IMG/VR virus record: IMGVR_UViG_3300030090_002129
Span: 1 to 24,349 of that record
DNA length: 24,349 bases
DNA from: a virus
Reading direction: 5' to 3' (one strand)
Part shown: positions 1-13,805 of the stretch, in pieces
Layout of the letters: each line of letters opens with the position of its first letter
Position numbering within the stretch: position 1 is the stretch's first letter
Notes under the pieces: model-generated
What the model was told of the DNA's origin: nothing
The model's database searches: none
Seen by the model: only the letters and a program-made list of their open reading frames with translations
Position numbers and translations under genes: made by a program

Positions 1-270
1 ACTCTGTACACTTGCCCTACGGCTACTACGGCTATTGTTAAGTCAATATTGGTTTCAGAGGATTCCGGTAACGCCGACACGATTACAGTAACACTTACCG
101 ATTCTGCCAGTGCAGTGTTTAGTTTATTCAAAACCAAAGCCGTTAGTGCCAATACTACTGTTGAGCTATTAACAGCACCGCTAGTCGTAGAAGAGTCTGA
201 AGTTTTAAAAGTCACCGCTGCTACTGCCAACCGTTTGCACGTAACTGCAAGTCTTTTAGAGGTTAGCTAG
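1..270 (+). CDS. small phage structural protein, 5' end cut by window edge
   Basis: The frame is open from base 1 to a TAG at 268-270. A TTG at 49 could be mistaken for a start, but the upstream codons read TLYTCPTATTAIVKSIL. From memory, this is the usual N-terminal region of small virion-associated phage proteins of the type 'LYT(V/C)PA..TAIVKSI'. The gene therefore starts outside the window. The visible part is 89 residues, rich in Thr, Val, Ala and Ser with alternating hydrophobics, which fits an all-beta (jelly-roll-like) fold. No signal peptide or membrane segment is visible. The stop overlaps the next gene's GTG by one base, so the two are probably translationally coupled. A structural or tail-associated role is inferred from family resemblance and position; the exact function is unknown. 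Confidence 0.7.
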   Translation, partial: TLYTCPTATTAIVKSILVSEDSGNADTITVTLTDSASAVFSLFKTKAVSANTTVELLTAPLVVEESEVLKVTAATANRLHVTASLLEVS

Positions 271-3173
271 TGAACGCAAGGCCAAGCGTAAGTGAAATAG
301 ATAAACTTCTTATGAAGTATCTACAAAATCCCCCTGTACGCCGATTCCAAAGCGGGGGTATGTCTGAAAACCCTGAAGCAGATTACTACGGTGGTGAAGA
401 CGAAGACCCATCTGGGCCACCAAAAACACAACCTGATTTAGGTAGAAGACGTAATCCTTATACAGGAACTATGCAAAAAAATATGGCTTACCTTGGTATG
501 TTAGCAAAGACTATGAAAGCTTTGGGTATGGTCAAACAGGCTGCAAATATCTGGAATCAACCGGGGCCAGATACAGTCATAATGAATTATGACGGAAGTG
601 AAGAGGGGGATATAGCTAAAACTGCTACAGAAGCAGCGACTAAAGCTATGGCTATAGCAGGTAATCTAGGAATAAATTTAGGTGCGTTAGAAAGTGTTGC
701 AGATGCTATGACTGTAACAGTTGCTGAAACTATTGCTGTTATGAAAGCACAAGGAGCATACGATGTAGCGGCTACCACGGCAGCAAATGTAGCAGCACAA
801 AAGGGATCTCTAGCATCCAGAATAGGTATGCCTAATCCTATAGTGTTAGCTCTTACTTATCTTGGAGGTAAAGTAGTAGAACAATTTTTACCAGATCAAA
901 CCCCATTTATATTTCAAAAATTAGATTTCATGCAAGGAAGAGGGGGAGATAACGAGGCAACTTATAATAAATTAATGGAAGCTGGGTTTAGTGGTGAAGA
1001 CAGTTTATTTGATATATTTAAAGATTTAGTAAGAACCCCTCAAGACTACTACGAATTTAGAGATAAATACTTTGTAGGTAATTTTGAAACAGATACTTTT
1101 AGAAAAGATCTTGGGCTTACTGACGATACTTTTTTCCCACTAGAAGAACCTGAACACGTAATGTTGGGTGACCTTAAAATATATGAAACAGGTAACGAAG
1201 AAGTAGATTTAGCAACAAAAGAACTTGCAGATCAGTTTAATGAGTATAAAGACGAAGGGTATTCTGAGTTACGGATATTAGAAGAGCTACGAATAGAACT
1301 CGATCCTGAAGAAATGAGGTGGTTTCAAGAATCTGATTTGGCTGCATTAGCAGAAGCTAGAGCCGCAGGTGACGACGAAGCCTATATGCGTCTACTGGGA
1401 GGGATGAGTACCGCAGTGGGCGAGTTAGCAGACCAACGAGCTTATGAAGAAGCCGCAGGTATACTGACCGAGCAAGAAGCCAATGAGCTGTTACGTAAGC
1501 AGTACCCAGATGGGTATACGCAAGAACAAGTTGATGCCCTACGATATGCAAATGTAGACGAAAGTGTTAACCGAGACGACTACAACCAATACGAAACTGC
1601 TAAAGAACAAGTACTAAGTCAGGATAAAGACCCTGTAATTACTATAGAAGGCGACACACGCCCACCTCAAACTGATGTAGAAGCTCCCCCTTTAGACGAT
1701 GATGAAGTGGACGTTGTTACAGGGGATGATGATCCTGATAACACAGTAGAGCCTGATGTAGATTTTACGCCTGTAACACCGCCAGAAGAAGACGATGAGG
1801 AAGAAGGCGGTGGTGGAGGAGGGGCTGAAGAAGCTGAAGAAGAGGAAAAAGCTGAAGAAGAAGCTGAAGAAACTAAAGAACCAGTAGAAAATGTAGTTCG
1901 TGAATCTTACGAAAAATGGCGAGAATACGCTAAAGAAGAAGCAAAGAAAAAAGAAGAAGCTGATGCAAAAGCCAAAGCGGAAGCAGAGGCTGAACGTAAA
2001 CGAGTAAAAGGGTACGAAGACCTTAATGCTACTGGTAAAGCTATTTATGATTTAGCAGAAGAAATGGGAGAACCATTAACTGTTGAAGAAATTTTAGGTA
2101 CTTATTTTTATCCTGATTCATACTTTGACGACTTTCGTGCAGGTAGACCTATTGGTAGCAGAATTAATAATTTTTATCGTTCTTACGGTAATTGGCGTAG
2201 AAACCAACCTCAAGAAGTATCAGAAAAATGGATATATTTAGGTGACCGTCGATGGATTCGTGCTAAAGACAGAGAAGCTTATTTAGCTACAGGACTTGGT
2301 ATAAGGATGGCAAGTGAGGATACTTATGATCCTGACTTAGAACCCGGAGTATATGGTGTAACTTGGAATTTAAGGGAAGAGGCAGACCCTGTAGACCCTA
2401 ACGAAGAAAAAAATACAGTGCCTTGGGATGCTTCAGATTCAAACTTTGAAGCTACTCCATCAACTGAAAGCACAGAAGAAGAATGGGCTTTTATTACAGG
2501 GTTTGATACTGATACTACAGATACCACTGATACTACAGATACTACAGATACTACAGATACCACTGATACTACAGATACTACAGATACTACAGATACTACA
2601 GATACTACAGATACTACAGATACTACAGATACTACAGATACAACCACTGAAACAGAAACAGAAACAGATACTACTGGTGAAGGTACTGGAGACGCTACTA
2701 CTGAAGGCGGTACTGAAACAGGGGGTGGTGAAGGTGGAGAAGGTACAGGAGAAGGCACTGGCACAGGGGAAGGCACTGGCGAAGGTACAGGGACGGGTAC
2801 AGGTACAGGGGACGGAAGCGGTGATGGCAGTGGTAAAGGGTCAGGGATGGGTATGGGGCTTTTGCAGTTGTTGTCAGCCCCCGATGCGTTAGGGCAACGA
2901 GTTGATGTAAAACCGCCAGACCCAGCAAAAATAGACTATTTCTATGATTTTGATAGTATATTTGCTACCCCTAGACAAGCTTCGTTGTTTCCTTCGCCGT
3001 ATGCTAAGATACAACAACCGAGGCAAACACCGTCAGGATTTGGAGGGTCATTGGGGCTAGGTAATATTTTTGCTCCACCTGCGAATAATCCACAACAACC
3101 TGTTAGACGAGCAAAAGGTGGGTTAATAGATACGACAACTAATGATTTGTTAAGAATTGTTGGAGGTAAATAG
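270..3173 (+). CDS. 967-aa low-complexity virion-type protein with TDT repeat
   Basis: The GTG start at 270 has AGAGG at 258-262, 7 nt upstream, and overlaps the previous stop by one base. Layout: a short N-terminal arm with PPVRRFQSGGM near residue 22; an Ala-rich segment at about 110-200; an acidic helical stretch at about 240-480; a Glu/Lys/Ala-rich stretch with a run of Gly at about 500-610, probably coiled coil; a compact-looking segment rich in Tyr and Trp at about 615-735; a Thr-Asp-Thr repeat at about 746-790; a Gly/Thr/Glu-rich linker to about 860; and a C-terminal tail ending QPVRRAKGGLIDTTTND...GGK. I recall similar tails in marine phage structural proteins, but no enzymatic domain is visible. 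Position among virion genes suggests a structural, tail or ejected protein. Function is not established. Confidence 0.75.
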   Translation: MNARPSVSEIDKLLMKYLQNPPVRRFQSGGMSENPEADYYGGEDEDPSGPPKTQPDLGRRRNPYTGTMQKNMAYLGMLAKTMKALGMVKQAANIWNQPGPDTVIMNYDGSEEGDIAKTATEAATKAMAIAGNLGINLGALESVADAMTVTVAETIAVMKAQGAYDVAATTAANVAAQKGSLASRIGMPNPIVLALTYLGGKVVEQFLPDQTPFIFQKLDFMQGRGGDNEATYNKLMEAGFSGEDSLFDIFKDLVRTPQDYYEFRDKYFVGNFETDTFRKDLGLTDDTFFPLEEPEHVMLGDLKIYETGNEEVDLATKELADQFNEYKDEGYSELRILEELRIELDPEEMRWFQESDLAALAEARAAGDDEAYMRLLGGMSTAVGELADQRAYEEAAGILTEQEANELLRKQYPDGYTQEQVDALRYANVDESVNRDDYNQYETAKEQVLSQDKDPVITIEGDTRPPQTDVEAPPLDDDEVDVVTGDDDPDNTVEPDVDFTPVTPPEEDDEEEGGGGGGAEEAEEEEKAEEEAEETKEPVENVVRESYEKWREYAKEEAKKKEEADAKAKAEAEAERKRVKGYEDLNATGKAIYDLAEEMGEPLTVEEILGTYFYPDSYFDDFRAGRPIGSRINNFYRSYGNWRRNQPQEVSEKWIYLGDRRWIRAKDREAYLATGLGIRMASEDTYDPDLEPGVYGVTWNLREEADPVDPNEEKNTVPWDASDSNFEATPSTESTEEEWAFITGFDTDTTDTTDTTDTTDTTDTTDTTDTTDTTDTTDTTDTTDTTDTTDTTTETETETDTTGEGTGDATTEGGTETGGGEGGEGTGEGTGTGEGTGEGTGTGTGTGDGSGDGSGKGSGMGMGLLQLLSAPDALGQRVDVKPPDPAKIDYFYDFDSIFATPRQASLFPSPYAKIQQPRQTPSGFGGSLGLGNIFAPPANNPQQPVRRAKGGLIDTTTNDLLRIVGGK
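2511..2636 (+). repeat. 9-bp minisatellite encoding (Asp-Thr-Thr)n
   Basis: Fourteen tandem 9-bp units lie in frame inside the 967-aa gene. The consensus is GATACTACA; units 2 and 6 are GATACCACT. The last eight units (2565-2636) are identical to each other. A degenerate unit follows at 2637. The unit length keeps the reading frame, so gain or loss of copies would only lengthen or shorten an Asp/Thr linker. Confidence 0.95.
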
Positions 3174-3175
3174 TA

Positions 3176-3982
3176 ATGTCATGGTGGGATAATTTAATAG
3201 ACGGTGTTATGGATGCTGGCGGAGATCTATTTGAATCAGGAATAGATTTTTTTACTAGTCCTAAAGGTTTAGCTTACTTAGGTGGTATGGGCCTTAGTAT
3301 GAGTAATTTTGGAGAAACTAAAATACCTCAAACAGGCTATCAAGGCGGTATACCTGACTATCAAGTTGTTAGAGAACGTGTCCCCATGCAATACGATCCT
3401 AATAGAAGGCCCGGAAGTATGGGCCAGCGTTATTTTTCAGATGCTATTTTTGCTCAAGCCCCTAAAGGTAGAAAGCCTATGACTGTAGAAGAGGCTAAAG
3501 CCAAAGCAGCGCAACAGTTAGCAGGTTTAGCTTCTTTAAATACAGGTAATAGAGAGGCTACACGCCGCCCTGTATACGCTACTAATACTATGGCTTCTTC
3601 TAACCCCGCTTCTGCTGTAATCAATACCATGCCTGTTGATACTGGTGAAGAAGATGAAATACAGACTACGGGTAATCGAACAGGTGGTGTTGCAAATATG
3701 TACGGAGGAGGCATAACTTCTTTAAATAAAGGCCGATATCTTGGTGGTATGACCGATGGTATGGCTGATAAAGTTCCTGCTAGTATTAATGGAACCCAAC
3801 CTGCCGCATTAAGTGACGGAGAGTTTGTTATACCTGCTGATGTGGTAAGTCATTTGGGTAATGGTAATTCTAATGCAGGGGCTAAACAATTAGATCAAAT
3901 GATGTCTCGTGTACGTAAAAAACGTACAGGCAATGCTAAACAAGGCAAACAAATTAAACCTAATAACTTTTTACCCGCGTGA
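3176..3982 (+). CDS. 268-aa marine-phage virion-type protein
   Basis: The ATG at 3176 follows the previous stop by 2 nt and has a good GGAGG at 3162-3166. The N-terminus (MSWWDNLIDGVMDAGGDLF) looks amphipathic, followed by a Gly-rich segment (YLGGMGLSMSNFG). The C-terminal third carries a pattern I recall from many marine phage structural proteins: a GGGI..L..GRYL.G segment, then TDGMADKVPA, then an L(S/A)DGEFVIPADVVSHLGNG core, then GAKQLDQMM and a basic tail ending in FLPA. This core is the best identification handle; its molecular function is not known to me. The gene lies in a tight run of virion genes, so a structural or internal virion role is inferred. No enzyme motif is visible. Confidence 0.8.
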   Translation: MSWWDNLIDGVMDAGGDLFESGIDFFTSPKGLAYLGGMGLSMSNFGETKIPQTGYQGGIPDYQVVRERVPMQYDPNRRPGSMGQRYFSDAIFAQAPKGRKPMTVEEAKAKAAQQLAGLASLNTGNREATRRPVYATNTMASSNPASAVINTMPVDTGEEDEIQTTGNRTGGVANMYGGGITSLNKGRYLGGMTDGMADKVPASINGTQPAALSDGEFVIPADVVSHLGNGNSNAGAKQLDQMMSRVRKKRTGNAKQGKQIKPNNFLPA

Positions 3983-3990
3983 GGTAGATT

Positions 3991-4884
3991 ATGAGTAATG
4001 GCACAAACGTACCTACAGATCCGGTAGCTGGAAAAGCAACGGGTAGTGAGTCCTCCCTTTCTAATTGGGCTGGCCCTTATGTTACCGATATGTTGGGTAA
4101 AGGAGCGGCAGCAGCAGATATGCCATATCAGGCATACCAAGGGCCACTTACTGCTGGTACTTCTGCATTACAAGACACGGCTTTCCAAGGTATTGGAAGT
4201 TTAGCTGTACCTACTGGAGCTATGGGTGCTTTTGATGCTACTGCGGCACAAAATTACATGAATCCCTACTTACAAGCTGCTTTACAGCCACAATTAGCTG
4301 AAATGAGAAGGCAGTCAGAAATCAGTGGTTTAGCTGATACAGCTAGGTTAACCAAGGCAGGAGCTTACGGTGGTACTCGCCAAGCCGTTATGGATGCAGA
4401 AAGAGATCGTGCGCTACAGGCTAATATTGGAGCAGCAGCAGGTGCAGGGTATGCAAAAGCATTTGATAAAGCGGCTGATCTATTTGGTAGAGATAGAGGG
4501 TATGGGCTTCAAGCATTAGCTGCACAACAAGCAGCGGGTAGAGAAGAACGCGCAATAGAACAAGAAGGTATATTAGCTGATCGTGCTCAGTTTGAAGAAG
4601 AAAGGGATTTTCCATACAAGCAAGCACAATATATGCAGTCGCTACTACAGGGTCTTCCCATTGCGGCTCAATCTGTATCTTACGCTCAACCTAGTAATTT
4701 AAGTAGGTTATTAAGTGAAAGCGGCGGTATTCTTAAGTTCCTTGAGTCATTAGGTCTTGGTGGGGGCACTCCTACTGAATATGGCTCTCAAGACGAAGCG
4801 GCGGCGGCTGAAGGTATCCCTACATCACAAGAAGAAAATGCTGCTTATGAGGCTACACAACAAGCCGAGGAGCAAACAGCATGA
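3991..4884 (+). CDS. 297-aa Ala/Gln-rich virion-type protein
   Basis: The ATG at 3991 is preceded by GAGGT at 3981-3985 with 5-nt spacing. The protein is rich in Ala, Gln and Gly. It contains NYMNPYLQAAL near residue 88, a helical arginine-rich stretch with GAYGGTRQAVMDAE at about 125-138, and RDFPYKQAQYMQSLLQGLP at about 208-226. I recall this order (YMNPYLQ, GGSR/GGTR, then DxPYKQ) from phage proteins located near tail or internal virion genes and sometimes labelled DNA-transfer-like. Most of the chain is predicted helical by eye, and there is no membrane segment or signal peptide. The stop overlaps the next start as ATGA, implying translational coupling with the 590-aa gene. Function is inferred from context only. 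Confidence 0.75.
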   Translation: MSNGTNVPTDPVAGKATGSESSLSNWAGPYVTDMLGKGAAAADMPYQAYQGPLTAGTSALQDTAFQGIGSLAVPTGAMGAFDATAAQNYMNPYLQAALQPQLAEMRRQSEISGLADTARLTKAGAYGGTRQAVMDAERDRALQANIGAAAGAGYAKAFDKAADLFGRDRGYGLQALAAQQAAGREERAIEQEGILADRAQFEEERDFPYKQAQYMQSLLQGLPIAAQSVSYAQPSNLSRLLSESGGILKFLESLGLGGGTPTEYGSQDEAAAAEGIPTSQEENAAYEATQQAEEQTA

Positions 4885-6653
4885 TTCCTATAGATAGACA
4901 AGTACAACAGACTATGGGGGCTTTTAGAGGCCAACCTGACAAGCTTATGCAGCGTTATAAGCAGGGTAATAACTTAATAGACCTTCTTGCTTTACAACAA
5001 ATGAAGTCCGATATGGATGCGGTTAAGCAACAGATGGTATTGTCCCAACAACAAATGCCGGGAACTATTAGAGAACAACGCGAGCAAGAAGTACTTGCTG
5101 GTTATAAAGAGAAAGCAGGGCGACAAGTCGGTGATGTTGCAAAAAATACGGCTGGGTTACTCGCCCAAAGGCAAGCCTCTGTTAACGCTAATATGCAGCG
5201 TCAAGGTATTATGCAGCAACCAACCAGAGCTGCTAGTAATGGCGGTCTAATGAAGATGGCTGGTGGCGGTATTGTTGGATTTTCTACGGGTGGTATTACT
5301 CAAGCAGATATAGATGCGTATAGGCAAAAATTGCGTGGCCGTAAACAGCGAGGCCCACAACGCAATTTAACTGATGCTCAAATTATAGAAATGATAAAAA
5401 GAGACCGAAGTAGAGCACAAATGTCTATGCCTATGAACCAAAGGCAATCGGCAGGGTTTAAAAAAATAGGTCAAACTACACCTGCTGTCCCTTCAGTTGC
5501 TCAACCTCAAGTAACTTCACCTGCTGAAGTAGTGCCTGTAGAGCAAACAGATTATGTAAAAGAAAAAGTTGAAACTGTAGCTAGTGCTTTAAATAAACCG
5601 GCTGCTGAAGTAACCGCAAAAGATATTGCTGAAAAAGCAGAAACTTTAGGGTATGAACAAGAAGAACTCCCTAAACCTCCTGCTGAAGATCCTAACGCTG
5701 GTAAGAGTGAAGGATTAGGGTCGCTTAAACCCCCAATACCCGCAAAAGAAAGGTTTGATTCTGAAGCAGTAAAAACAAGAGTAAACCCAATATTAGACGA
5801 ATTTGGGTTAGGCGGAGTAGGAAGTAAGACGTTTACTGATGTACGTGATGAAGCTAGAGCAGACTCTGATACATATTTAGATAGAGCGGGCGCAAAACAA
5901 ATAAGAGAAACGCAACTTAACGAACTTGAAGAGCTTAGACAAAAACAATTAGATCCTGAAACTTTAAAAAGAGATAACATATTACGAGGGTTAATAGCAG
6001 CGTCAGGAGGCGGTAATTTTGCTGCGGTTGGGCAAGGTATATTTAATGCTGAAGATGTTCAAGCTTTACAAGAACGAAACTTCTTAAAAGAAAAATTTGG
6101 TATACAGGATAATCTTTTAGATACAGATTTAGAAATAGGCGTAAAAGGTATTGATTCTGGTAACCAAGCTGTAGATATATTAAGTAAGCAACAACAAGCC
6201 GCAGCAAAAATAGTATCGGATTTTAGTGTTGAAGAACTAAAAGATATGAGAGAACGGTCTAGGCAAAAATTTGAATCAGGTCAAAACGAAATTGCTAATA
6301 GGCTTAAAGAAAAAGAAATAAATGCACTTGAAGAATACAGAAAGGCAGTTACAGATAACCAAAAACTACAAGTATTATTAGATCAAACAGGAGAAATATC
6401 TACAACGATATCTACAGCCATAGAGATGGACGATCAACTTTCTGCTTTAAAACAAGAAATAAAAGACAACCCTGACGATCAATCTCTTAAAGATGAATAT
6501 GAACTTTTATTAAAACAAAAACAAATTGAAGTATTTGATATGCTTAATATGGCAGGTCTTTTTGATCTTGTAGAACGAATAAAAACTGATCTAGGATATG
6601 CCGCGGGTTCAACAGGTGCTAGTGGGTTTGGCCCCATAACACGACAACCGTAA
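4881..6653 (+). CDS. 590-aa coiled virion-type protein with MAGGG motif
   Basis: The ATG at 4881 overlaps the previous stop (ATGA), with GAGGAG at 4867-4872, 8 nt upstream. The N-terminus (DLLALQQMKSD, then PGTIREQREQEVL) is Gln-rich and helical. It is followed at about residues 124-141 by the Gly-rich motif KMAGGGIVGFSTGG. This arrangement matches marine phage proteins I recall with 'MAGGGIVAF' motifs. Residues 200-270 are Pro/Glu/Ala-rich linker. Residues 320-560 are long charged helices, probably coiled coil. The C-terminus is Gly/Ser-rich. No catalytic motif is seen. It sits directly before the giant polyvalent gene, so a role in the virion interior or the ejection apparatus is a reasonable but unproven inference. 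Confidence 0.75.
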   Translation: MIPIDRQVQQTMGAFRGQPDKLMQRYKQGNNLIDLLALQQMKSDMDAVKQQMVLSQQQMPGTIREQREQEVLAGYKEKAGRQVGDVAKNTAGLLAQRQASVNANMQRQGIMQQPTRAASNGGLMKMAGGGIVGFSTGGITQADIDAYRQKLRGRKQRGPQRNLTDAQIIEMIKRDRSRAQMSMPMNQRQSAGFKKIGQTTPAVPSVAQPQVTSPAEVVPVEQTDYVKEKVETVASALNKPAAEVTAKDIAEKAETLGYEQEELPKPPAEDPNAGKSEGLGSLKPPIPAKERFDSEAVKTRVNPILDEFGLGGVGSKTFTDVRDEARADSDTYLDRAGAKQIRETQLNELEELRQKQLDPETLKRDNILRGLIAASGGGNFAAVGQGIFNAEDVQALQERNFLKEKFGIQDNLLDTDLEIGVKGIDSGNQAVDILSKQQQAAAKIVSDFSVEELKDMRERSRQKFESGQNEIANRLKEKEINALEEYRKAVTDNQKLQVLLDQTGEISTTISTAIEMDDQLSALKQEIKDNPDDQSLKDEYELLLKQKQIEVFDMLNMAGLFDLVERIKTDLGYAAGSTGASGFGPITRQP

Positions 6654-6662
6654 GACACTATT

Positions 6663-9600
6663 ATGCCTACATATTCTGTTGCTGGGCCAGATGGAAACAC
6701 ATATAGCATAGAAGGGCCAGAGGGTGCTACTCGTGAACAAGTAATTGGCGAAGTAATAAGGCAGTTACGAGAACAAGAACGAGAAGAAGCAAGTAAGCAA
6801 CGACAAGAACGATTAGCTGATATTAGAGAAAGTAGGCGAGGTTCTGTATCTCGCGGTCTTGATATTGGTACAGACCTCATTGCACAAGCTACAGGATCAA
6901 GCTTAGAAGGCATTGGTAGTCTTTTAGGGCTTGAAGGGCTTGAAGAATACGGTGCTGAAGTCGCACTAGAAAACGAAGCTGATATCCAACGTAAGTCACG
7001 TTACCAAACCCGTTTTGATGATATTGAAGGTGTAGGAGACTTTGGTTCTTACTTAGGTGGTATCGCTGCGGAAAGTGCTCCTCAAATGGGTGCTGGTCTA
7101 GCAGGTGCTGCGATAGGTACAGGAATACTTCCCGGTCTCGGTACGGTAGTAGGTGGTATAGCTGGTGCTACGCTTGCTAATCTTCCTTTCTTTTATGGTA
7201 TGAATCGTGAACGACAGAAAGAAGCTATAGACCAAGGGATTAAAACAGAAGTAGATGAAGGAGCTGCTTTTCTAACTGCCTTACCACAAGCTTTACTCGA
7301 CGGTATTGTAGATAAGTTATTACTAGGAGCAGGAAGCGGTTTTGGGTTTACCGAAAAAGCTATTCGTAGTGGAGGGTTATTTACCAGAGGTGCTAAGGGT
7401 ATAGGCACAGGTGTAATTACTGAAGCTCCTACTGAAGTAGGCCAACAAATGTTAGAGCGTGCCCAAGCTGGGTTATCGTTAGACAGTGATGAAGCAATAG
7501 CAGAGTACAGAGAAGCCGCGATTGCAGGTGGTTTATTAGGTGGTGCAGTTAGTGGAACGATTAATGTTGGTAGAGGAAGAATCCAACAAGAAGATACGAA
7601 TGTTATAGACAAAGACGGAGAAGATGCTACACCTATACCCAGAGAGACAGCACCTGTAGGAGCAGCAGGGTTAGGTGCGCTGGTAGATACACAAACAACT
7701 GATGCACTAAGTATATTAGCTGAAGAACAAGGTGGCCTTACCGATGCGGATGTAGCCGAGGCTAGAGAACAATTAGATACAGTTAGTCAGGTACAAACTA
7801 CTGATGATGCTTTATTTGATATGTTATCAGGAGGTATAGGAGCACAGTTAGAAACAGGAGTAGAAACAGGAGTAGAACCAGAAGCAGCGGCAGAAACCCG
7901 CGGTGCTACTAAAACTACAGACGTTGAACTTACAGATGATGCAATAGCTAAACTATTAAGAGAAGCGGGTAGAGCAGAAGAAAAAACAGACAGAATAATA
8001 GATGCTGTTGCAGACGCAGAAGAAAAAGCTTTTGAACAAGACTATGGTACTACGGAAACCCGCGATGCTACTGATACTGGAGATGTTGTTACAGAAGCAG
8101 AAGAGCAAAGAATAAAAGAAAGAGCAAAAGTAGGCGGTGTTTCAGTAGCTGATATGGATGAATCGTTTCAAATGGAAGTGATTACTCCTTCAAACTATAA
8201 AGACTTACCTAAAAAAGACCAAGAGTATTGGGATGCAGAAGCAGAAAGGCGCGGTGCTACTGATACTGTAGACGACGCGGCAGTAGAAAGGCGAAAAGAT
8301 CTAATTAATGAAGCTATAAGTAGTGTACCGGCCTTAACACAAAAGACTACAGATTCTGATAAGGCAGTATCACAAACAGAAAAGGCGGTATCGAAGCTAA
8401 CGGAATCTCCTTTTATTCGCCAAGCTCTTACTATGAAAAAGTTAAAAGAAAGTATAGAAGAAGCAGGGTTGCCAGAACTAACAACCCAAGAGTCTAAAGA
8501 AGTACGAGCGCAAGTAGTGGCGGCGATAAAACAAGAGGATGCGGGTAAAACACCTAAAGTAGTTACTGAGAAAGAAACTACCGATGTAGAAACCGAAACA
8601 GAAGTAGAAGCCGAACCAGAAGATAGACTCGAAACTATTGCTGAAGCAGTCGATACAGTAAAAGAAGAAACGCAAGAACAAATAGAGGCAGTTAGTCAGG
8701 TAGAAGAACAAGCAATAGAAGACGCAGAAAAGCTAATAAAGACAAAAGGTTTTAGCGGCAGAAAAGCTGAAGACTTTACCGATGAAGAGGTTAGTACCTT
8801 TGCTACGGCAATACCCGCGTTGGAAAGAAGTAAGATGTCTATGCGGGAAAAAGCTAACTATATAGAGATTATTTCTGCTGGCGATCAAGCTGATTTTATT
8901 GCTAAAGAAGGGCGCGAACCGACCAACGAAGAAAGAAGTGAGATATTTAATCGAGCTAAAAAAGAAGTAAACGCAGAACAAAAATTAATTTCTACACGAC
9001 TAGGTAAGCTCAAAAGAGCTACTAAGCCAGTACAAACTAAAGTTGAAGATAGAACCGCTGCCGTTGAAGCTGCAAAAGACGAAAAGCCCATAAGGGAAAG
9101 GCTTGATACTACGACTGAGGTTAAAGAAGCAGAGGTAGGTGTACTAGAAGCTAGAGAAGAAATAGAGAAAGGTGAAGTTGAAACTTTTGAAAAGAAGATA
9201 GAAAAATCAAAAAAGACAAGAACTACTTCTGAAAGAGAACAAGAAGAAATACAAAAATTAAATAAAGCAATAGACGAAAATTGGGAACAAACCCAACCTG
9301 AAGCGTATAAAGCCTTTGTAGACAGCGGCAAACAAAAAGTGGATGCTCCTAAGCTACCTCCAAACCTCAGTGACTCAGAAGCTGTAACAGAACTTTTCTT
9401 TGGAGAAGGGAAACTAACCGAACAAGAACAAGATGCGCTTACTTATCTAACCGCACACCCAACTTTAGAACGTAATCTATTTGATTTGGCTTATGATGTT
9501 GCGATAGATGCCCCTGAATATCGAGCATCAACAGGTTCTTCCGCTGCGGCAAAAGAATTTTTTGCTGGTAAAGGTGGCGTACACAAAGATAATGCTCTTG

Positions 9601-12600
9601 CTTGGGTTAGAGATAACCTATCTGCCGAAGCAAATATGTGGGTGTATAACGCAACGGAAAGTCAAATTGCTAAACTTGAGCGTAATCCACCACTTAGTGC
9701 AGATTATTACGACGTAAATCAAAAAGCATCTGCATCGCCTTTCGGCCTTGAGAAATCTGTTAACACGCCGCAAGTGTACGATGGTTATTTTAATGCAGCC
9801 GAAAACAAAGCAAAAATAAACTTAGCCAATAACCCTGAGTTTCTTGCGCTCTTAAATACATTACCTAAAAAAGAACAAGACAGAATAAAAGCGGAAATAA
9901 AACAGGATATAGAGAAAGCAAGAGAAGCAGAAAAACAAAGCCTAGCGTTACCCAAAGACTCTGAGCTTAACCTTGATGTACCTATGCACCCCATCGTTAT
10001 GACTCAATTACGTAATGGTGACCTAGCGGGTGCGCTTCGATCTTTAACAACTACTTCATCTAACCCCCGTGTAAAAAGCATAGCTAAAAACCTAGCTAAA
10101 ATAGTAGGTGAAACCAAACTAGAAACTTCTAAGAACTTAAAAGCTAAAGACGGTAGGGCGGCTAACGGTCTGTTTGACCCAGAGACCAATACAATAAAAC
10201 TAGACGCTGATACAGGGTTAAACACGCATACTGTACTGCATGAGATGACTCACGCGGCTACTTCAGCACAGTTGGCAGATGGTAAGTCTGCGGCTGCTAA
10301 ACAGCTTAAAAAGCTATTTAATGAAGTAAAAGACCAACTAGGCACTGCGTACGGTTCGCTTACTGTAGATGAGTTTGTAGCAGAAGCTTTTGGTAACCCT
10401 ACGTTCCAACGAGAGTTAGCTTCAATAACTGTCCCTAATACCTTTAAGACAGCGTGGCATAGGTTCTCAACAATAGTATCTAACATACTAAACTTCTTAA
10501 CAGGTCGCCCACGTATACCACTCGCAGGTAAAGGTACTACTGTAGATGCGTTTACTGACCGACTTACTACTGCACTGTTAGCACCAGCTCCTTCATCACG
10601 TTTCTCTGGTGAGTTATTGATGGCGTTTAAAGAAGGTAATGCTGCTAGTGCTGTAAGGAATTACGGAAGAAACGTCGTAGAAGCAGTAAAGAATATTGAT
10701 AATAAAGTATTAGACGAAGGGGCTACAAGTTTACTAGGAGGAGCCAAAAAAGTAGCTAAAGTAATTGGTCTAGCCGCTCTTAATTCTCAGTCTTTAGCGG
10801 ATGTATTAACAAAAACATTAGGTGTAAAAGGTGCTTATAAGGTACACCAACTAATAGAAAAACAAGCAGGGCTGATAGATGGGGAAAACAAGTTATTAGA
10901 TGGCACTGCTAAACAGATAGAAGATTTCTTAAAAGCCAACCCAGACAAAAAAGAAACTTTCGATCAGCTTGTGGGTAAAAGCACGATAGAACAAGTCGAT
11001 CCTTCCAAAACTAAAAGTGAAGCTGACGCAGCATACGATTCAGAAAAACTTGCTGTATGGAAGGGTATGCAGACGGATTGGAACTCTCTTGGAGCAGAAG
11101 GGCAAGCAGAATATGTTAGATTAAGAGATTCATATAAGCGACTGTTTGATAAACTTAAAGAAGCTTTAGCAGCTCGATTTGAAGTAATAGAGAAAGAAAA
11201 CCCTAATAACGAAGCAGTTAAAGAATTAAAAAACACACTGTATCAACGGTTGATGGAAGCGGCTACGATTGAACCTTATTTCCCATTAACCCGCACAGGG
11301 GAATACTGGATACGGTATACAGCGACTCCAACTGATAGTAACGGTAATGCTATAGGGCCACCAGAAGTAACGGTAGAAGCACTTGATACAAAAGCTGCAC
11401 GTACTAGGCGTATACGTTATCTAAAAAGCATTAGCCCGCAAGAAGATAACGCTCAAATAGCAGACATAAAGTTCTTTAATAATATAAGCAATATGGATTT
11501 TGATAACGTAGCTCCAACTTCTTTTGTATCCCAAATGCTACAAGTGTTGCAGAGTGCAGGAGTAGAAAAAGATGTTCAGCTACAAATAGCTAGAAACTTT
11601 ATTGATGCTGTACCTGAGTCTTCTTTCCTTAAGTCTTTACATAAAAGAAAAGGAACCGCTGGATATAACGTAGATGCTATGGATGCGTACCGACAAAAAG
11701 CTTATAGCATAGCTAGACAAGCGGTAAATATAAAAGTAACGGAAGAGTTGTACTCTACTCGCGATGACATACGTAAAGCACTTACTAAGAAATTAGAAGC
11801 TATTGCAACACTTGAAAGCGATTTGGATGATGCAAAACGGCCCGCTGATGAAAACCGCACACCTAGCCAAAGGGCTAAAGAGATAGCGACTATAGAAAAG
11901 CAGATGGAAGAACTAGGTGCTAACAAATACATTAGTAGTGAAAATGTAGACGCTGCGGTAGCTGAAATAAACGCTCGTATTTTACAGGCAACTTCACCCG
12001 CAGATAATTGGGTAGAGACAGTAGCAAAAACAGCAAACCGTTTAGCGTTTTTAGGTACTATCGGGTTTAGCGCAGCCTCTACCATTGTCAATATGGGCCA
12101 AGTACCTATGGTGGTAGTTCCTTTCTTAGCAGGCAAAACTAATTTTACTACCGCAGGTAGAGCAGCTATGACAGGTATGAATCTGTTTGCAGGTAGTGGG
12201 CTTAGTAATAAGTTACCTGTTTTAGATAGTAATAATAAAGAAAAAGACATAGAAGTTAGAGGTATGCCGTCTATTGATAATTACTATACGGAAGATAATG
12301 ACGGTAATTTGATACTACGCGACGACATAGAAGACGTTAAAAACTACTATGCCATGCCCATAGATGACAAAGGTAACACTAAGATGTTATCTAAAAAGGA
12401 ACTCCTAACCATTCTTAAACCTTTAATAACAGAAGCGGGCGATAGATCTCTGCTTAATCGATCTCTAGCTGCGGATACGCTTGGTGTAGAACTGGCGGGT
12501 AAGAAGAGAGGAACTAAACTTAGAGAAGGATGGGATAAATTTAATTTATGGAGTGCCTTGCCTTTCCACACAGCAGAGCGCATGAACAGGCAAGTGTCTT

Positions 12601-13805
12601 TAGTTGGTAGTTACTTAAATGAAGTAGCTAGAATGAATATGAAGCCCAACAAAGCGAAAGGAGAAAATAACCTTACTGAACAACAGATATTCGAGACAGC
12701 GATAGAAACAGCCTTATATGACACACAGCAGACTAATGGCGGTGCTACATTAGCTACTTCACCTCGTATCGCGCAGAAGCATATAGGCCGCGTTGCTATG
12801 ATGTTTAAGACGTACGGATTTACAATGTACTACCATCAGTTAAAGATGGCTCTCACTGCATTACAACAAGCAAAAGAAAATGGTTTAGACGACTACACCA
12901 TACGCCAAGCGAGAAGGCAGTTAGTAGCAAGTTTAGGTGCTACAGCGGTGATGTCAGGACTGCAAGGACTTACTATAGTAGGAATATTTGAAGGACTAGC
13001 AAATCTTTTCCTAGATGATGAGGACGAAGATGCAGAGACTTATATCCGTAAGTTTCTTGGGGAACCCTTGTATAGCGGCGGTTTGCAGTATCTAACTATG
13101 TTTGCGGGTGATATTTTCGGGGCAGAGACAGAACTAGATATAGCCTCTCGTATAGGTCTTTCACACCTCATATTGGGTAATAACAAGTATGACTTTAATG
13201 AGTCTGCTAAAGAAGAATTTGTAAATATATTAGGTGGCCCCGCATTAAGTTACGGCTCATCAATCGCAAGAGGTGTAAATGATATATACAACGGAGAGAT
13301 GCAAAGAGGTATAGAAAGTATAGTGCCTTCCGCCATCCGTAATGTATTAAAGACCTTTAGGTACTCTGACTTTGACGAAGGTACGGCCCGCACTCGACGC
13401 GGCGATCCTATAGTGGATGACTTAAACCCTGCACAGATGACCGCTCAGTTCTTAGGATTTGCTCCCGCAGAATACTCCAGAGCGCAAGAGATAAATCAAG
13501 ACATCAAGCGTATAGACCGAGCAGTTAACCAAAAACGCACTAAGTTGATGAAAAAATACTACGTTGCTAAACGTATGGGGGACGCAGACGGTATAAGGGA
13601 AACGGCAGAAGAAATAAGAGAGTTTAACAAACGACATAGAAACAAAGGGCCAAAGGTTAGGATTAGCACAGAAAGTCTTATTAGATCTATGAGGATGCAC
13701 GCAAAAACTTCATCCGAGATGCACAACGGTATTACGTTAAGTCCCAATATAAGAGAGTACTCTAAAGAATTAGCTGATGAATATGCTAGGTCAGGGCTTT
13801 TTTGA
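6663..13805 (+). CDS. 2380-aa polyvalent ejected protein (zincin, PLxRFG-like)
   Basis: The ATG at 6663 follows the previous stop by 9 nt; no strong Shine-Dalgarno is visible. Domains in order: an N-terminal GPDGNTYSIEGPEGAT motif (residues 8-23); a Gly/Ala-rich hydrophobic segment (128-179); a long Glu/Lys/Thr-rich stretch (about 300-900) with a triplicated RGATDT motif; a metallopeptidase-like domain with HEMTH at 1193-1197 and EFVAEAF at 1237-1243, where E1241 is a candidate third zinc ligand (gluzincin pattern); PLTRTG at 1541-1546 followed by KRKGTAGYNVDAM, matching the PLxRFG domain of phage polyvalent proteins; and hydrophobic segments at about 1794-1828 and 2087-2117 in an LPD38-like C-terminal part. 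Polyvalent proteins of this kind are thought to be delivered with phage DNA. Peptidase activity here is inferred from the motif only. Confidence 0.8.
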   Translation: MPTYSVAGPDGNTYSIEGPEGATREQVIGEVIRQLREQEREEASKQRQERLADIRESRRGSVSRGLDIGTDLIAQATGSSLEGIGSLLGLEGLEEYGAEVALENEADIQRKSRYQTRFDDIEGVGDFGSYLGGIAAESAPQMGAGLAGAAIGTGILPGLGTVVGGIAGATLANLPFFYGMNRERQKEAIDQGIKTEVDEGAAFLTALPQALLDGIVDKLLLGAGSGFGFTEKAIRSGGLFTRGAKGIGTGVITEAPTEVGQQMLERAQAGLSLDSDEAIAEYREAAIAGGLLGGAVSGTINVGRGRIQQEDTNVIDKDGEDATPIPRETAPVGAAGLGALVDTQTTDALSILAEEQGGLTDADVAEAREQLDTVSQVQTTDDALFDMLSGGIGAQLETGVETGVEPEAAAETRGATKTTDVELTDDAIAKLLREAGRAEEKTDRIIDAVADAEEKAFEQDYGTTETRDATDTGDVVTEAEEQRIKERAKVGGVSVADMDESFQMEVITPSNYKDLPKKDQEYWDAEAERRGATDTVDDAAVERRKDLINEAISSVPALTQKTTDSDKAVSQTEKAVSKLTESPFIRQALTMKKLKESIEEAGLPELTTQESKEVRAQVVAAIKQEDAGKTPKVVTEKETTDVETETEVEAEPEDRLETIAEAVDTVKEETQEQIEAVSQVEEQAIEDAEKLIKTKGFSGRKAEDFTDEEVSTFATAIPALERSKMSMREKANYIEIISAGDQADFIAKEGREPTNEERSEIFNRAKKEVNAEQKLISTRLGKLKRATKPVQTKVEDRTAAVEAAKDEKPIRERLDTTTEVKEAEVGVLEAREEIEKGEVETFEKKIEKSKKTRTTSEREQEEIQKLNKAIDENWEQTQPEAYKAFVDSGKQKVDAPKLPPNLSDSEAVTELFFGEGKLTEQEQDALTYLTAHPTLERNLFDLAYDVAIDAPEYRASTGSSAAAKEFFAGKGGVHKDNALAWVRDNLSAEANMWVYNATESQIAKLERNPPLSADYYDVNQKASASPFGLEKSVNTPQVYDGYFNAAENKAKINLANNPEFLALLNTLPKKEQDRIKAEIKQDIEKAREAEKQSLALPKDSELNLDVPMHPIVMTQLRNGDLAGALRSLTTTSSNPRVKSIAKNLAKIVGETKLETSKNLKAKDGRAANGLFDPETNTIKLDADTGLNTHTVLHEMTHAATSAQLADGKSAAAKQLKKLFNEVKDQLGTAYGSLTVDEFVAEAFGNPTFQRELASITVPNTFKTAWHRFSTIVSNILNFLTGRPRIPLAGKGTTVDAFTDRLTTALLAPAPSSRFSGELLMAFKEGNAASAVRNYGRNVVEAVKNIDNKVLDEGATSLLGGAKKVAKVIGLAALNSQSLADVLTKTLGVKGAYKVHQLIEKQAGLIDGENKLLDGTAKQIEDFLKANPDKKETFDQLVGKSTIEQVDPSKTKSEADAAYDSEKLAVWKGMQTDWNSLGAEGQAEYVRLRDSYKRLFDKLKEALAARFEVIEKENPNNEAVKELKNTLYQRLMEAATIEPYFPLTRTGEYWIRYTATPTDSNGNAIGPPEVTVEALDTKAARTRRIRYLKSISPQEDNAQIADIKFFNNISNMDFDNVAPTSFVSQMLQVLQSAGVEKDVQLQIARNFIDAVPESSFLKSLHKRKGTAGYNVDAMDAYRQKAYSIARQAVNIKVTEELYSTRDDIRKALTKKLEAIATLESDLDDAKRPADENRTPSQRAKEIATIEKQMEELGANKYISSENVDAAVAEINARILQATSPADNWVETVAKTANRLAFLGTIGFSAASTIVNMGQVPMVVVPFLAGKTNFTTAGRAAMTGMNLFAGSGLSNKLPVLDSNNKEKDIEVRGMPSIDNYYTEDNDGNLILRDDIEDVKNYYAMPIDDKGNTKMLSKKELLTILKPLITEAGDRSLLNRSLAADTLGVELAGKKRGTKLREGWDKFNLWSALPFHTAERMNRQVSLVGSYLNEVARMNMKPNKAKGENNLTEQQIFETAIETALYDTQQTNGGATLATSPRIAQKHIGRVAMMFKTYGFTMYYHQLKMALTALQQAKENGLDDYTIRQARRQLVASLGATAVMSGLQGLTIVGIFEGLANLFLDDEDEDAETYIRKFLGEPLYSGGLQYLTMFAGDIFGAETELDIASRIGLSHLILGNNKYDFNESAKEEFVNILGGPALSYGSSIARGVNDIYNGEMQRGIESIVPSAIRNVLKTFRYSDFDEGTARTRRGDPIVDDLNPAQMTAQFLGFAPAEYSRAQEINQDIKRIDRAVNQKRTKLMKKYYVAKRMGDADGIRETAEEIREFNKRHRNKGPKVRISTESLIRSMRMHAKTSSEMHNGITLSPNIREYSKELADEYARSGLF

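Follow-up and report, generated by a model that had tools for sequence, protein, structure and literature searches.

Why should several neighbouring genes of one virus encode short peptides built around a Gly-Gly (GG) pair? The question is raised by the IMG/VR record IMGVR_UViG_3300030090_002129, which we analysed as a whole (24,349 bases, hereafter the window) and whose plus strand holds genes for proteins of 967, 268, 297, 590 and 2380 amino acids (aa). The original prediction had noticed GG motifs in the 967-, 268- and 590-aa proteins, held them to be kept at the protein level, and offered a common docking, packaging or cleavage signal for a co-assembled set. Here, we report that a peptide of roughly [MF]-A-x-G-G-[IVL]-[VA]-x-[FLY]-x-x-G-x-x-[VL] is conserved in three proteins of this gene module. 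Our reading, to which we give a probability of about one half, is that it serves as a GG-hinged docking peptide of a phage ejection module and is related to tape measures. All five motifs lie where they had been placed and are spelt with different codons; the sixth line below gives the wider stretch around the last of them.

333-362, plus strand: PVRRFQSGGM, N-terminal motif of the 967-aa protein, kept only in close relatives.
3099-3128, plus strand: PVRRAKGGLI, near the C-terminal end of the 967-aa protein; the conserved part is AxGGx[VI].
3698-3724, plus strand: MYGGGITSL, 590-like GG motif of the 268-aa protein.
3731-3763, plus strand: GRYLGGMTDGM, start of the tape-measure-like segment of the 268-aa protein; conserved as GxYLxGxTDGMAD.
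5256-5294, plus strand: MAGGGIVGFSTGG, GG motif of the 590-aa protein.
5238..5294, plus strand: NGGLMKMAGGGIVGFSTGG, stretch of the 590-aa protein that holds the conserved MAxGGI[VI]x[FY]xxG.

Conservation was computed over 101 gene-called loci with 950 proteins, made up of the window, IMG/VR contigs, six genome contigs and one phage record. Five loci (L015, L017, L019, L021, L022) were excluded because they duplicate the window record or contigs already in the set, and the near-identical loci L002/L018, L013/L014 and L073/L075 were kept. Of these loci, 85 hold the 967 C-terminal family and 98 the 268 C-terminal domain (largely by design, since the 268 family was the main route by which loci were gathered); the 297 family occurs in 94, the N-terminal part of the 590 protein in 81 (83 proteins) and the C-terminal part of the 2380 protein in 59. 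With the percentage of rows written after each residue, the motif of the 590 family (83 rows) reads M71 A84 x G93 G96 I87 V78 G56/A28 F60/Y27 x x G92 G50; in the numbering of the 590-aa protein these include G129 (93%), G130 (96%), I131 (87%) and G137 (92%), and all four belong to the few nearly invariant columns of a 59-row alignment whose mean column identity is 16%. The 268 family (98 rows) reads M51/Y19 A69 x G87 G92 I55/L18/V8 A65 x L47/M19 x x G87 and continues x Y90 L94 x G97 x T88 D96 G95 M94 A88 D95, that is, G178 87%, G179 92%, Y188 90%, L189 94%, G191 97%, D194 96%, G195 95% and M196 94%. The C-terminal end of the 967 family (85 rows) reads A58 x G84 (G950) G88 (G951) x V50/I27. Four of the five motifs thus belong to elements conserved across a large phage family.

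The remaining instance is local. A loose PVRRFQSGGM-like pattern occurs in 6 of 56 N-termini, four of them genuine by eye, among these the window's own and two others nearly identical to each other; the PVRR repeat is not conserved in relatives, and of the two glycines in the window's YLGG, the first (G190) is kept in 36% of the 98 rows and the second (G191) in 97%. At the codon level, the 60 GGI sites of the 590 family use 20 different spellings and the 50 of the 268 family use 22, so the motif common to the module genes is a protein-level one. The 13-codon block of the 590 motif, a small one, differs by two residues from each of three relatives, and in the rest of the protein 152 of 574, 185 of 566 and 350 of 504 aligned codons differ. 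The observation as first made is therefore partly confirmed: protein-level conservation stands for four motifs, but not for PVRRFQSGGM, the PVRR repeat or the first Gly of YLGG. For just these three, composition and chance (GG pairs are common, and look-alikes may have been picked) do account for the likeness; for the other four motifs that explanation is refuted by conservation, with the shuffles and the collection scan below also against it, and as an account of the whole it is highly improbable.

Is it one motif or several? In the window alone, GG followed by I, L, M, V or F (2000 shuffles per protein) is in excess in the 268-aa protein (5 against 0.97 expected, p 0.003) and the 590-aa protein (4 against 0.93, p 0.006), not significantly in the 967-aa protein (3 against 1.84, p 0.27), and also in the 2380-aa protein (9 against 3.0, p 0.003). 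The wider pattern [MFY]AxGG[ILMV], compared with 30 shuffles per protein across the families, separates them: 63 seen against 0.5 expected in the 590 family (118-fold; 56/82 proteins), 46 against 0.7 in the 268 family (69-fold; 44/86), 14 against 1.4 in the 967 family (10-fold; 14/86) and 16 against 0.2 in natural 268-297 fusions. Elsewhere the counts are tiny (297 family 3 against 0.8, other same-strand genes 4 against 1.7, opposite strand 0 against 0.1), and neither the 2380 family (1 seen, 1.6 expected) nor the folded part of the 297 family shows an excess.

The likeness goes beyond the two glycines. We removed the two GG columns from the profile of the 590 motif and scored sites with GG at the aligned column (78/83 rows for 590, 85/98 for 268, 72/85 for the 967 C-terminal family) against 2273 GG sites in the 297, 2380 and remaining proteins, whose own 1-5% rates are the background itself. 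Among the 85 sites of the 268 family, 65% exceed the 99th percentile and 87% the 95th; the corresponding values for the 72 sites of the 967 C-terminal family are 19% and 50%. Additional GG sites exceed the 99th percentile in 5% (268 family), 3% (590 family) and 16% (fusions) of cases. In profile-profile comparison, the best local match falls on the GG motif for 590 with the 967 C-terminal family (P 0.0034), 590 with 268 (P 0.0038), 590 with tape measures (P 0.013, on the second half, FxxGGxV), the 967 C-terminal family with tape measures (P 0.064) and 268 with the 967 C-terminal family (P 0.21), and off it for 297 with tape measures (P 0.44) and 268 with 297 (P 0.61).

Where does the peptide sit in the proteins? 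In a model of a natural 268-297 fusion (L040, 81 rows; mean predicted local distance difference test, pLDDT, 66.5), the 297 part forms long helices, and the GG together with the TDGMADKVPA-to-ADVVSHLGNG region lies in or beside segments with pLDDT below 50 (134-152, 162-183 and the linker 222-288). In the model of the 590-aa protein (mean pLDDT 72.3), residues 108-133 fall below 50, between helical parts. Conserved motifs in such low-confidence linkers would be typical of short linear motifs. The same predicted location would suit a plain flexible hinge, in which GG lets internal proteins unfold and thread the portal and the flanks are secondary; since the flanks are common to the families even when the GG columns are left out, we consider this quite unlikely. 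In the docking reading, the motif would be a short hydrophobic strand between flexible glycines, placed in linkers or ends predicted to be unfolded, and the strand would add to a partner common to the carrier proteins, possibly the portal, the adaptor, the nozzle or another ejection protein. Such docking may let the carrier proteins be stored together and leave in order. A precedent for the proposed mechanism is the neck of phage 80-alpha, where, according to a passage of PMC11661146, the sheet of the tail completion protein is extended by strands from tape-measure chains, contributed by their N-terminal residues. A docking or packaging role is plausible, and the peptide is a concrete candidate for the docking, storage and release of injected proteins. 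Searches with the two models gave no Foldseek match to the PDB at E <= 0.001; in BFVD there were six matches at that limit, five of them uncharacterized or unnamed and one labelled intramolecular chaperone auto-processing. Rows labelled VIA-align were rejected as generic long-helix look-alikes.

The second link is with long-tailed phages. The profile of 98 sequences of the 268 family, compared by hhalign with 11 siphophage tape measures, gives a probability of 95.9, P 5.6e-9 and a score of 52.8, against a mean of 11.1 (standard deviation 2.6) and a maximum of 22.1 in 200 column-permuted controls; the 11 were our own choice from a list for which phage DSL-LC04, itself matching the window domain at only E 0.02, had served as intermediate. 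The aligned segment is as follows.

3719..3859, plus strand: segment of the 268-aa protein aligned (hhalign) to the siphophage tape-measure element FAxGGxVxGPGTxxSDSIPAxLSNGEFV.

The alignment covers 39 columns (GxYLxGxTDGMADxVPA...LSDGEFVIPADVV) and opens at SLNKGRYLGG opposite FAxGGxVxG, with MYGGGI, which is like the first half of the 590 motif, just upstream. In all 11 tape measures compared, A-x-GG precedes G-[PA]-G, with about 10 residues between them in one. The 268 family has the SDSIPAxLSNGEFV-type core preceded by a GG motif, but GxTDG where the tape-measure element has GPGT, and the 268-aa protein differs further in being short, in standing within a multi-gene module and in having 8 extra residues between VPA and LSDGE. 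It is not a whole tape measure: at 268 aa and as one of several genes, it shares the element only. The element begins in the last quarter of 9 of the 11 tape measures and at about 63-66% of the length in two; the peptide in the 268-aa protein would thus open a segment related to a C-terminal element of siphophage tape measures. PHROGs holding the element include 3547, 5448, 6090 and 25241. The 268 counterparts of DSL-LC04 and Caulobacter phage GB2A match several tape-measure PHROGs over SDSIPAxLSDGEFV, and the window's own 268-aa protein has no PHROG match at E <= 0.1. The DSL-LC04 stretch matches 484 phage records at E <= 0.01, and 50 of the 60 listed, spread over the ranking, are annotated as tape measure. 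GenBank labels two 268 counterparts tape measure, so the resemblance had already been met in annotation; word searches of the literature, which covered the motif strings and also tape-measure motifs described as double-glycine or as fusogenic and glycine-rich, turned up nothing to the point and no discussion of a shared GG peptide.

Ejection proteins and tape measures are generally regarded as analogues of each other, and here one short element is found in both, which, judged from sequence, hints at a common part in two kinds of DNA-injection protein. It may also suggest something larger, namely that 268-297-590 is a tape measure in pieces, long- and short-tailed phages sharing one ejection toolkit, split or fused by lineage, with the GG peptide as the docking code among the pieces or to the tail channel; we put this forward tentatively, as a possibility that we still rather doubt. 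The related element in tape measures, the composition (Gly with Ile, Val and Phe) and the T5 tape measure, called fusogenic in the title of one paper, would also fit a membrane-active, fusion-peptide-like segment helping ejected proteins to enter the envelope. The peptide, however, is only about 12 residues long, and I131 (87%), V132 (78%) and F/Y134 (87% of 83) are stricter than a membrane segment needs; this explanation seems unlikely to us.

How are the carrier proteins arranged? The genes and the conserved region of the first are:

270..3173, plus strand: 967-aa protein, whose gene stands immediately before that of the 268-aa protein; its family varies greatly in length and has a conserved C-terminal part of about 105 aa.
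2856..3170, plus strand: conserved C-terminal region of the 967 family, ending in AKGGLIDTTTNDLLRIVGGK.
3176..3982, plus strand: 268-aa protein with the tape-measure-like C-terminal segment.
3991..4884, plus strand: 297-aa protein, helical (model of a fused homolog); its family matches a DNA ejection protein (phrog_4287).
4881..6653, plus strand: 590-aa protein, with an N-terminal helical part, the GG motif, a linker and a long-helix C-terminal part.
6663..13805, plus strand: 2380-aa protein with a PLxRFG domain, downstream neighbour without the motif.

The 967 gene directly precedes the 268 gene in all 83 loci that have both, and the order 268-297-590 holds in 80/80 loci. The 268 domain is joined to the 297 homolog in a single open reading frame (ORF) in 13 of 98 loci, and every one of the 13 linkers contains GG, as AxGG in 11 and as M[AS]QGG in 7. 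The loci of the collection scan described below add 5 further ORFs joining the 268 domain to 297, one of which (L239, 643 aa) has the 590-type motif MAGGGIVGFSEGG as the linker itself; in 20 scan ORFs the 297 domain is followed by a 590-type motif, 4 with a 590 profile match and 16 with the motif alone. Unfused 297 homologs have GG before or at the domain start in 16/81 cases, 11 of them as a looser [FY]xxGG near the N-terminus. Two counted as unfused (L026, L052) hold the fused-type linker and stop within 2 bases of the locus end; they are probably cut fusions. Fusions and fixed gene order together make it probable that the 268, 297 and 590 products act together in one assembly. The motif is retained and multiplied in the fusions, which makes a third component, for instance the portal-tail channel, a likelier partner than the 297 protein itself. 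The earlier interpretation of a common signal for a co-assembled set is therefore partly supported: the motif is shared within one module with its fusions and fixed order, but it shows no excess in the 2380 family or the folded 297 part, and one of the five instances is local.

The fusions bear on cleavage too. Some viral proteases cut after GG, and a phage protease might cut the GG motifs at maturation or after ejection, separating modules as in a split polyprotein. That would agree with a motif that, in the carrier families, lies where modules meet or close to an end, with GG in 13/13 fused 268-297 proteins where other phages have a stop and a start, and with the HExxH zinc-protease signature in 57 of the 59 members of the 2380 family. 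Against it, residues on both sides of GG are conserved, as far as the following G some 7 positions later, the 268 and 590 motifs are retained in unfused proteins, the fused proteins keep the motif, and nothing connects the HExxH protein with the GG sites. The cleavage signal of the original prediction thus gained no positive evidence, and we regard it as improbable.

Is the peptide confined to this module? A DNA pattern for MAxGGIV[GA][FY], run over IMG/VR, hit at least 120 stretches, and 118 loci were fetched. All 121 sites in them lie in open frames of at least 60 codons (119 ORFs), and among the matches listed 114/119 carrier ORFs are in or beside the module, or 106/111 without eight contigs already among the 101 loci. 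Eighty ORFs match the 590 profile only, 4 match 590 and 297, 16 match 297 only and 1 matches all three, some of these assignments hinging on the E-value limit (L130, L137); 13 share their stretch with homologs of 268, of 297 or of both, and the remaining 5 stand on stretches that show no such neighbour. The scan favours 590 homologs as expected, since the pattern was built from the 590 motif. One of the five (L160) has MARGGIVGFDRGGVLPPGLT near the end of a 607-aa ORF, which may be a tape measure by its looks. Rhizobium and Acidobacteriaceae genome contigs (L103, L104, L105) carry a diverged version, IMAAGGE[FHY]V..., adjoining in L103 and L104 ORFs of more than 1100 aa that match the 297 profile, possible prophages. 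A looser version is found in HMO-2011-type phages.

What, then, is the module? The 297 family matches the DNA ejection protein family phrog_4287, with E 1.6e-9 and 6.9e-9 in two isolates and 20 rows at E <= 0.01, the best at 2e-9 (81 scanned, 48 with the 297 part); this is a family-level match, whereas the window's own 297-aa protein has no PHROG match at E <= 0.1. Neighbouring small, middle and giant genes in fixed order follow the layout of podovirus ejection modules. The same order is known from T7 gp14-gp15-gp16 and P22 gp7-gp20-gp16, described in part of the review PMC8954989 as internal proteins leaving with the DNA. The window proteins have no profile match to the T7 or P22 ejection proteins, nor do the two models match them in fold, an absence that is no sign of a different fold. 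The same review speaks of mosaic conservation of ejection proteins, and a passage of PMC10883804 of little recognizable sequence similarity between those of T7 and P22. That passage also has tape measures proposed to form the conduit in long-tailed phages. Annotations of DSL-LC04 include a stabilization protein and a DNA transfer protein, from which we infer that the virus of the window is probably short-tailed. Taken together, the 967, 268, 297, 590 and 2380 genes are probably the ejection (internal virion protein) module of a putatively short-tailed phage, and the element could be a handle for such modules missed by annotation. No match that we trust came out of scanning the window's 967-, 268-, 297- and 590-aa proteins against PHROGs, Pfam and NCBIfam; we set aside an NCBIfam serine-rich match (E 7.2e-5), which falls on the repeats of the 967-aa protein. 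The best match of the 268 family to PDB sequences has E 0.5.

Among cultured phages, the window's 268 sequence matches MinM2 (E 1e-16), GB2A (5e-7) and, at only 0.02, DSL-LC04; Pelagibacter phage HTVC027P was reached through the DSL-LC04 stretch (E 1e-8). They show a similar gene layout, with the neighbours assigned mostly by position, and in MinM2 the profiles recovered the 268 domain only. At least 574 of 600 candidate environmental stretches encode relatives of the 268 protein. The N4-like Alteromonas phage AD45 was dropped as a relative (268 domain E 2, no GG motif at the site read).

Please note that several points weigh against the docking reading. Because the loci are related, some of them nearly identical, the counts cannot be taken as independent. 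Singly, the P values between families are weak, and it is their agreement that would count. Near residue 245, the proteins of the 297 family carry their own GG[ILV], which is partly conserved (G in 63% and 57% of 94). The fusions retain the motif, so a role in simply linking 268 with 297 does not account for it. Choosing the tape measures through DSL-LC04 makes the direct comparison somewhat biased. Low pLDDT can also reflect a shallow alignment. Presence in the particle is predicted from gene order, the match of the 297 family to a DNA ejection protein family and the tape-measure likeness, and the docking partners named above are candidates.

Some further observations concern the individual genes. 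Complete members of the 967 family range from about 670 to more than 2700 aa, and one open at its start exceeds 3300 aa; many begin with V/D-rich, amphipathic-looking helices, one (L096) contains a cell wall hydrolase domain and another (L076) has EF-hand matches. A run of Asp-Thr-Thr repeats stands at about 2500-2650 in the 967-aa protein, where relatives have repeats of the Gly-Gly-Thr-Thr or Thr-Asp-Gly-Gly type instead. In the 2380-aa protein the HExxH signature lies at about 10239-10253 and the PLxRFG domain spans the C-terminal part. The minus-strand genes of the window mostly look, on reading, like replication genes. In HTVC027P and DSL-LC04, the gene after the 297 counterpart (L121:9049-9888 and L108:7119-9056) opens with another motif, RPMFRKGG / RSMFRKGE.

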